From NCBI GenBank assembly GCA_947632545.1, contig CANRPP010000008.1, forward strand, positions 1 to 47,273: 47,273 nt of DNA, read 5' to 3'. The translations under genes were made by a program, and so were the position numbers. Position 1 is the first letter of the stretch, and the number at the start of each line of letters is the position of its first letter. The notes beneath the pieces are model-generated. The model searched no databases, was not told where the DNA came from, and saw only the letters and a program-made list of their open reading frames with translations. This document shows, one piece after another, positions 9,456 to 11,999 of this stretch. Origin of the DNA: an uncultured Bacilli bacterium. Lineage in GTDB: Bacteria > Bacillota_I > Bacilli_A > RF39 > UBA660.

Positions 9456-9526
9456 ACTATTCTTACCTCACAATTAAAGTATATCACAAATAAAATATTA
9501 ATTCTATATATATTTAAATCAAAAAA

Positions 9527-9548
9527 GTTCTCAAAATACATTGAGAAC
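9527..9548 (-). terminator. Rho-independent terminator of the TMEM43-like gene
   Basis: GTTCTCAA...TTGAGAAC inverted repeat followed on the minus strand by TTTTTT. Confidence 0.85.
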
Positions 9549-9557
9549 TCCCTTTAA

Positions 9558-10859
9558 TTACAATACATTATTATTTGAATTATCCATATTAGAATTATTA
9601 TTTAAATTATCTATATTTGAATTATTCATATTAGAATTATTATTTAAACTATCTATATTTGAATTATCCATATTAGAATTATTATTTAAAATTAAATCTT
9701 GATTTATCATATTATTTTCATTTGTATTTGTATTATTTATAGCTTGATTTTGATTAACAATTAAATTATTATTATCAAGTTCTTTTTTAGAAGAATTTTT
9801 CTTAATTAATACTCTTATTGCAAATATTAGACCAACACATACTGCAAGTAAACAAATACCTAATAATGGTCTAAATCTAATCCATGCAACAGCTATAACT
9901 AATAACGAATGAATGAATCCGACTAATAATAAGATAAAGGTTAAAGCACCACCTATAATTCCACCTAAAATAGGTATATATGAAGTTAAAGTAGTAATTG
10001 GACTAATAACAAGTATATAACCAATTGAAATAGCAATTACACCTATTAATCTAAAAATCCATTTTAATGTATTGTCTTCATCTTGCATATTTTTTACTAT
10101 TTGATCTTTAGTTAATAATCCTTCATCAACTCTATTTACAGTCTTTCCACTTGATGATACATAGTCTGTAAAACTATTACCTTGTTGAACCGCTAAAACA
10201 CTTACTTCTTTATAATCGTTGTATTTCCATGATATTCTAACATCTCCAATTTCAGGAGAAGATAAATTACTAGAATTTGTAGCATATTGTCCACTAGCAG
10301 TAAACCCAGTAGGTAGCATAACTGAACTATCAAGTGATAGTGTTTTATCAGTACTTAATAAATCAAGTTGATCATTTGTCAAACTATATGCTCCTACTTT
10401 TACAGAAGAAGCAGTAAAATCTTGATTTTCATATTCCATATAACTAGGATTATCATGACCTGGATCATGGAAATTAGAAGAATTAATTATATTACTTGAC
10501 CATACTTTTTTATAATTATATGATTTATTATTATTGTCACCATTAACTTCATCTTCATCCCATTGATACACTTCAACAACTCTTCTTAATATAGGAGTTT
10601 TAACACCTACATAAAACATTGAATCTTCTACTTTTTCATCATCAACTACTAAATCACCATTAGTAGTAATTAATTTACCTTCATATTTAGAATCAACTTT
10701 ATCACTACTAATACTAATAGCATTATCAGATACATCTTTTACTTTTTTCAAATTAGCAACAGTGTTTCCTTCATTCCACCAAAGAAATATTGTACCCCCT
10801 ATTATTAATATAATTCCAAATATAATCCCCGCAAAAGGATTAGTTTTATTTTTTTTCAT
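9558..10859 (-). CDS. TMEM43-family membrane protein with Asn-rich repetitive C-terminus
   Basis: FAGIIFGIILIIGGTIFLWWNEGNTV N-terminus and C-terminal TM block match the TMEM43 (PF07787) pattern; tail NNSNMDNSNIDSLN repeats. Confidence 0.8.
   Translation of the reverse strand: MKKNKTNPFAGIIFGIILIIGGTIFLWWNEGNTVANLKKVKDVSDNAISISSDKVDSKYEGKLITTNGDLVVDDEKVEDSMFYVGVKTPILRRVVEVYQWDEDEVNGDNNNKSYNYKKVWSSNIINSSNFHDPGHDNPSYMEYENQDFTASSVKVGAYSLTNDQLDLLSTDKTLSLDSSVMLPTGFTASGQYATNSSNLSSPEIGDVRISWKYNDYKEVSVLAVQQGNSFTDYVSSSGKTVNRVDEGLLTKDQIVKNMQDEDNTLKWIFRLIGVIAISIGYILVISPITTLTSYIPILGGIIGGALTFILLLVGFIHSLLVIAVAWIRFRPLLGICLLAVCVGLIFAIRVLIKKNSSKKELDNNNLIVNQNQAINNTNTNENNMINQDLILNNNSNMDNSNIDSLNNNSNMNNSNIDNLNNNSNMDNSNNNVL
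9580..9690. repeat. 42-bp tandem repeat (about 2.6 copies) inside the TMEM43-like gene
   Basis: Units start at 9580, 9622 and 9664: ttatccatattagaattattatttaaattatctatatttgaa; encodes NNSNM(D/N)NSNID(S/N)LN. Confidence 0.9.
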
Positions 10860-10878: not shown

Positions 10879-11853
10879 TTATTTAACATTTTGTTTTTTA
10901 TCTTTTGTAACTTTATAAATAATAATTGAACCAACACCAACTAATATTATAGCAGCAACTATAATAATTATAGCTTTATTTAAAGCAGTATTAGGAACAT
11001 TATGTATTGTTTGACTACCATTACTATTAGCATTAACAAAAGGATCAGTTTTAAAATAAAAATAAAAGTCTGCTGTATCTAATCCAACATCATTTAAAAT
11101 AGCATAGTCATTTTCTATTGCAGTCGGATTATTAATATTAAGTGAATCATTTAAATTTAAATCCGAAGAACTAAGAAAATATAAGTCTTCGTTATGACTA
11201 GCAGTTGTATTTAATTTACCTCTTATTTCACTAGGAATTTCAAGTTTTACTTTTGTTCCTGCTGGTGTCATAAACCCACTAATTGCCCCCTCAAGATTCA
11301 AATCATAAATATTTTTACTGCCTGATAATAGTTGAAAATGATAAACATAATTTGTGCCTAATTTATTAAGTATATTTTTATCAGTAACTTTTTTTATAGA
11401 AACTTTGGCATCAATTGGTGTAAAGTTAAGAGACATATAAATTTTTAAATCATTATCAGGTAAATTTTCAACTTCTTTAGATTCATGAACTGCTATTAAA
11501 TTAATGTTAATACGATTAGTTTCTGCATTTGTAGATGTGTTTTTTTCATATACTGTTATTGTATTTTCTGTTTGTGTAAGATATTCTTTTGGTACATGAC
11601 CTTGACCTGGAACAGTAGTTTCTTTATCACTAGTATAATCAACACCATTTATTATATAATGCACTTCAATATTTGAAATTTCTTCTGCATTAGTATTATA
11701 GGAAAAACTACACTTTTCTTCTTCTACAATACATAACTCATTTTCCTTAAAACTAATTTGATATGACTCTGCTTTAACCTCCTTTAAATCAACCCCAATA
11801 AAAATTATTGCTATAACTGCAAATATAGATAAAATTTTAAATTTATTTTTCAT
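10879..11853 (-). CDS. Secreted, C-terminally membrane- or wall-anchored surface protein
   Basis: Signal peptide MKNKFKILSIFAVIAIIFIGVDLKEVKA; C-terminus VPNTALNKAIIIIVAAIILVGVGSIIIYKVTKDKKQNVK (sorting-signal-like layout); SD GGAGG at 11860-11864. Confidence 0.75.
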   Translation of the reverse strand: MKNKFKILSIFAVIAIIFIGVDLKEVKAESYQISFKENELCIVEEEKCSFSYNTNAEEISNIEVHYIINGVDYTSDKETTVPGQGHVPKEYLTQTENTITVYEKNTSTNAETNRININLIAVHESKEVENLPDNDLKIYMSLNFTPIDAKVSIKKVTDKNILNKLGTNYVYHFQLLSGSKNIYDLNLEGAISGFMTPAGTKVKLEIPSEIRGKLNTTASHNEDLYFLSSSDLNLNDSLNINNPTAIENDYAILNDVGLDTADFYFYFKTDPFVNANSNGSQTIHNVPNTALNKAIIIIVAAIILVGVGSIIIYKVTKDKKQNVK

Positions 11854-11884: not shown

Positions 11885-11915
11885 ATCATACCCCCCCCCC
11901 AGAGCATTTTGTCAA
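11885..11915 (-). promoter_or_regulatory. Promoter with G10 tract in spacer: TTGACA-19(G10)-TATGAT
   Basis: Minus strand TTGACA (11910-11915), spacer AAATGCTCTGGGGGGGGGG (11891-11909), TATGAT (11885-11890), 31 nt upstream of the start codon. Confidence 0.75.
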
Positions 11916-11961
11916 TATATGGCAATAATCGACTTGTAAAGTTTACATGTGGTTGATTTTC

Positions 11962-11985
11962 AAAAAAAAAGAGCTATTAACTCTT
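11962..11985 (-). terminator. Probable terminator downstream of uppP
   Basis: Minus strand AAGAGTTAATAGCTCTT followed by a T run. Confidence 0.65.
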
Positions 11986-11999
11986 AATTATATAGAATA

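Follow-up and report, generated by a model that had tools for sequence, protein, structure and literature searches.

The window analysed here is a single contig of 47,273 nucleotides, one of the 42 contigs of a 1,045,355 bp genome of 24% GC from an uncultured Bacilli bacterium of the lineage RF39, which probably inhabits animal guts, and it carries on its minus strand a promoter in which a homopolymer of ten guanines lies entirely within the spacer that separates a recognisable -35 box from a recognisable -10 box. Read from the sequence in the direction of transcription, the promoter runs TTGACA-AAATGCTCT-G10-TATGAT, with the -35 box at 11910..11915, a fixed spacer part (AAATGCTCT) at 11901..11909, the G10 tract, as the variable part of the spacer, at 11891..11900 and the -10 box, which abuts the tract, at 11885..11890. 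The spacer is 19 nt long, exactly as a first-pass annotation of this DNA had claimed, its TTGACA/TATGAT promoter lying at 11915-11885, and the distance of about 31 nt that it gave to a gene with a GGAGG Shine-Dalgarno sequence is likewise borne out, the -10 box being separated by 31 nt from an ATG at 11853 preceded by AAGGAGG. The same annotation had noticed no comparable G/C homopolymer elsewhere in the window, and the G10 tract is indeed the only place in it where seven or more Gs or Cs stand in a row, whereas a G7 is expected 0.10 times per dinucleotide shuffle. The promoters cited for comparison, said to have spacers of 17 or 18 nt, have 17 nt at 47115-47087 (TTGACAAAATGC...TATAAT), 17 nt at 3016-2988 (to TAGAAT) and 18 nt at 40669-40640, while the motif said to be shared by the promoter of the AMP-binding gene is present in the TTGACAAAATGC with which that promoter opens. 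A generic promoter scan covering spacers of 16-18 nt did not list the 19-nt window promoter.

The gene behind this promoter (10879..11853, minus strand) encodes a protein of 324 aa with a signal-peptide-like N-terminus and a sorting-like tail, VPNTA-hydrophobic-KDKKQNVK, and is followed after a short gap by a gene for a 433-aa membrane protein of the TMEM43 family (9558..10859, minus strand; Pfam PF07787, E 4.6e-61). The operon postulated earlier can be delimited as these two genes, 11853-9558, closed on the same strand by an intrinsic terminator (9526..9549) consisting of a strong hairpin with a T-run (z = -5.65). Behind the upstream BacA/UppP gene lies a weak hairpin (11952..11986, minus strand; z = -1.1) with a clear T9 run, and for this reason transcription probably begins afresh at the G-tract promoter. 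We also note that a small gut bacterium here encodes a TMEM43-family protein, and that its gene appears to share a transcript with a putatively phase-variable surface gene.

The product of the first gene had been described as secreted and C-terminally anchored, a description with which its signal-peptide-like start and its VPNTA-hydrophobic-lysine-rich tail agree. It is a candidate for sortase anchoring, for which an LPXTG-like motif, a hydrophobic stretch and a positively charged tail would be expected in a genome with sortases; it has VPNTA, a helix at 288-321 and a lysine-rich end, and the genome has seven sortase matches. No Pfam anchor domain was matched in the protein, and a Pfam search of it and of the class A and class B products described below returned no accepted family; a single-sequence structure model (pLDDT 36) is informative for the N- and C-terminal helices only. 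The signal-peptide-like start together with the C-terminal membrane tail suggests that what the promoter controls is a surface-exposed protein. Family-level matches to the surface gene are weak, or fall mainly over the tail region. The eight other genomes of the genus contain no relative of the surface gene and lack the gene for its TMEM43-family partner, and because both genes are absent from them the two-gene unit is accessory to the present species.

Long G-runs across the genome

Pattern searches with a G8 pattern found 23 separate G-runs in the genome, namely 11 G9, 10 G10, one G11 and one that a contig end shortens to 8, where the expectation for runs of at least 9 at 24% GC is between 0.01 (independent bases) and 0.08 (first-order Markov); runs of exactly 7 G do not occur in the genome. 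All 23 lie 0-9 nt 3' of a -35 box (TTGAC), a -10 box follows each of the 22 with enough downstream sequence, and the spacers of these 22 promoters measure 18 nt in 6 cases, 19 in 13, 20 in 2 and 21 in 1. Their recurrence is non-random, the pattern TTGACN{0,10}G8 having 27 matches in the genome and its reversed control 0.

The tract promoters fall into two layouts. Class B, which includes the window promoter, reads TTGACA-9 nt-G9/G10-TANNNT, tract and -10 box being contiguous; the fixed part of the spacer is AAACGCTCT in most sisters of the window promoter, and their -10 boxes here are TAGAAT or TATATT. Class A reads TTGAC[T/C]-0 or 1 nt-G9 to G11-TAGTTATNG-TATAAT, with the tract near the -35 box. 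The readable genes 3' of the tracts are all of secreted or membrane (surface) type. Class A products have signal-peptide-like starts, what we read as repetitive, beta-rich middles and a tail, NPNTSDI-hydrophobic-KRRFN, that is conserved in all but one, and on contig 10 two of the sortase matches lie close to class A genes. Class B products have a hydrophobic anchor at the N-terminus (KKIVKKNYKILIGIVIGIIISTT) and an ENILTGSDVSY region that is semi-conserved, whereas their middles vary; they often end in ARAVVEINK. Eight of them make up a multigene family with common ends and variable middles, a candidate antigenic-variation family as judged from these sequences. Loss of mismatch repair finds no support, MutL being present in the genome, and there is therefore no sign of a general mutator.

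The tracts could be incidental, either as mutational G-runs or as one promoter repeat amplified together with a gene family, in which case no selection for variability would be involved. Class A and class B promoters do recur in the genome with near-identical flanks, and their count accordingly owes something to duplication, but long G-runs confined to promoter context at 24% GC, with exact 7-runs absent, sit badly with an incidental origin, and substitutions should interrupt neutral tracts of G9-11. As the family comparison below shows, flanks and tract positions also vary by genus while total spacing stays similar. We therefore regard incidental tracts as highly improbable.

Among the genome's non-tract TTGACA/TATAAT promoters, 17 nt is the spacing in 19 of 31 and 18 nt in 4 of 31, whereas none of the 22 tract promoters has 17 nt (p = 1.3e-6). 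If poly-G spacers obey a 17-nt optimum, most tract promoters would be weak or OFF in their assembled state, and the loss of one G, to 18 nt, or of two, to 17 nt, would make the window promoter strong. G8, at 17 nt, fits the genome's own optimum, and poly-G DNA could shift the ON length to G9, at 18 nt.

The spacings of 18-19 nt found in most tract promoters, above the 17-nt norm, would also be expected of a fixed structural or regulatory element, in which a stiff or A-form-like 19-nt spacer would give a weak promoter dependent on an activator, through MerR-like untwisting or a poly-G-binding protein, and lengths would not be switched physiologically; promoters under MerR-type control typically have a spacer of 19 nt. 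By inspection, the AAATGCTCT-G10 spacer contains no dyad-symmetric operator of the MerR type, and a tract that adjoins the -35 box in class A and the -10 box in class B is hard to square with a fixed operator. A fixed element is further opposed by two observations set out in the next section, namely that the non-G flanks vary between genera while total length is kept, and that near-identical promoters differ in tract length. On this balance we consider it unlikely, although less so than incidental tracts.

Spacer geometry and tract length among relatives

TTGACN{0,10}G8 occurs in 5 of the 9 genomes of the genus, in 40 of 118 genomes of the family, where the reversed control gave only a handful of matches, and in 22 of 249 genomes of an even sample of the phylum, two of which belong to the same family. 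From the family we assembled 114 distinct tract contexts, a set biased on the -35 side by a pattern demanding TTGAC nearby; the G-runs of the genome itself, gathered without the TTGAC requirement, give the same answer. With the -10 box picked solely from sequence 3' of the tract, blind to the distance from the -35 box, the count of nucleotides ahead of the tract falls as the count behind it rises (r = -0.84; 0 of 10,000 permutations), and total spacing, with a standard deviation of 2.4 against 5.7 in permuted pairings, is kept near the sigma-70 range. The relation persists after related copies are collapsed to 45 genome-by-geometry points, in which a few loci without a genome assignment were kept as their own group (r = -0.79; 0 of 20,000). 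A strong -10-like box follows 100 of the 114 tracts, compared with 36 in shuffles. Because the nucleotides on either side of the tract compensate for one another across the 114 family tracts, we read the tract as acting as a spacer element. The genes behind these tracts are again of surface type: of 88 readable products, 78 have a hydrophobic segment at the N-terminus, as against 10 of 43 genes of the window (p about 1e-13).

Differences in tract length were sought, as a proxy for instability, in 25 within-genome promoter pairs whose 40 flanking bases differ at no more than 2 positions, and 10 of these near-identical paralogous pairs differ by one G. One promoter trio has identical flanks (40/40) and tracts of G9, G10 and G9, and in further paralogue families tracts with the same adjoining flanks range over G9/G10/G11 or G10-G14. 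Assembled lengths at G-runs may of course be products of sequencing or assembly, in which case inferences from length would be unsafe; the assembly is a draft, MAG-like one, and nine contig ends of the genome lie within 150 nt of a tract. An artefact of this kind leaves unexplained, however, why tracts are confined to promoter spacers and why the geometry recurs in independently assembled genomes, and we give it next to no weight. The tract-linked contig ends are those of C5, C7, C14, C21, C24, C29, C37 and C42 (both ends) in G000 and of C7, C13, C49, C110 and C191 in G003, with ends at or inside G-tracts commoner than chance; in G003 and in the congener G007, several contigs break off within a tract or shortly after one. 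Such breaks fit repeated promoters, mixed tract lengths in the sampled population or both, and prove neither.

A genome of 0.8 Mb from the same class (G544) has 43 pattern matches in which TTGAC abuts G-tracts of great length, the longest reaching at least 17; it may be a mycoplasma-like relative that carries the design in an extreme form. Among the matches listed in a wider scan, TTGACAAAA-n-G8+-TANNNT is found in gut Clostridia, Treponema, Alphaproteobacteria, Streptobacillus and Streptococcus, some single matches in unrelated taxa being due to chance. One locus of Streptobacillus notomytis and two of Streptococcus, which are named, cultured species, have TTGACA-poly-G-TATAAT/TAAAAT before secreted-protein genes. 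In gut Clostridia MAGs, represented by seven loci, there are many TTGACAAAAATGC-G8/G9-TAAAAT-like units per genome; these have a spacing of about 15-16 nt, often lack a long ORF just 3', and might represent either a dispersed repeat or another type of promoter. The class B promoter pattern had no match in viral contigs.

Promoter-spacer phase variation as the proposed explanation

The reading that we favour, with a probability of roughly 0.85, is that the G10 tract is a contingency element in a sigma-70-type promoter and belongs to a promoter-spacer phase-variation regulon of surface proteins. The phase-variable promoter suggested by the first-pass annotation thus gains support from the placement of all 23 long G-runs 3' of a -35 box, with surface- or membrane-type genes wherever the downstream gene is readable, and equally from the compensating geometry across genera and from paralogous promoters that differ in tract length. 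Under this reading, slippage within the population would change the number of Gs and hence the -35/-10 spacing; the assembled G10 (19 nt) is predicted to be weak, and G9 (18 nt) or G8 (17 nt) strong, these being the presumed OFF and ON lengths. With at least 23 such promoters in two architectural classes, the cells of one clone would display combinatorially mixed sets of surface proteins, a property that may serve in the evasion of the host, phage or competitors. With less confidence, we think it rather probable that poly-G spacers are a main switch of the surface proteome in the family: all long G/C tracts here would be promoter spacers, more than 20 surface genes in two classes would switch independently of one another, and the population as assembled, whose promoters mostly miss the 17-nt optimum by 1-4 nt, would be largely OFF, with ON cells rare.

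Several known systems resemble the proposed one in part. In mycoplasmas, whose genomes are small and AT-rich, the promoters of a multi-gene family of surface lipoproteins contain homopolymers (e.g. the poly-A of vlp); these systems share with the present case the promoter homopolymers of a surface family, and differ in having poly-A and lipoproteins and in lacking a cell wall and sortase. In published accounts of Neisseria meningitidis porA (PMC7864442, PMC3899988), a poly-G tract between -35 and -10 sets by its length both the spacing and the level of transcript, an arrangement like that of the window promoter in placing poly-G in the -35/-10 spacer of a surface-protein promoter. There, however, it concerns one gene of a Gram-negative pathogen, whereas here at least 23 promoters of a sortase-bearing, uncultured gut Bacilli lineage are involved, and, of the two, it is porA for which those accounts give a proven link between length and expression. 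Treponema pallidum tp0126, which encodes an OmpW-like protein, likewise has poly-G inside the -35/-10 spacer, with best transcription at 17 nt (PMC7864442), the value at which that source also describes the porA optimum; phylum and protein are unrelated to the present case. Variation of poly-G length in vivo is established for T. pallidum tracts, whereas those of the present lineage are known from assemblies, and the T. pallidum tprL tract lies at the -10 region, outside the spacer. Haemophilus influenzae hifA/hifB has a (TA)n repeat in its core-promoter spacer, and variation of this repeat alters both the distance between -35 and -10 and the expression of fimbriae (PMC3899988), the likeness here being a repeat in a promoter spacer and the difference a dinucleotide unit and a divergent promoter. 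A biological resemblance is also offered by Bifidobacterium breve, a gut Gram-positive commensal in which G-tract slippage switches sortase-dependent pili (PMC9187656), although through an intragenic frameshift rather than a promoter.

The mechanism is therefore already known, and what appears unreported is how many promoters are involved, that long G/C tracts in this genome serve exclusively as promoter spacers, and the lineage in which this occurs. A search of the open literature, which is weak evidence given the limited library, brought up nothing that links RF39 with phase variation, nor any survey of spacer-tract promoters on a metagenome scale. For this uncultured gut lineage, the tracts provide a map, drawn from DNA alone, of surface genes that are probably switched stochastically, and their ON and OFF states would be predictable from G counts in metagenomic reads. 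Since the same layout is found, among the matches listed, in gut Clostridia, Treponema, Streptobacillus and gut Alphaproteobacteria, spacer slippage may be a widespread and under-counted route to surface variation in commensals and pathogens.
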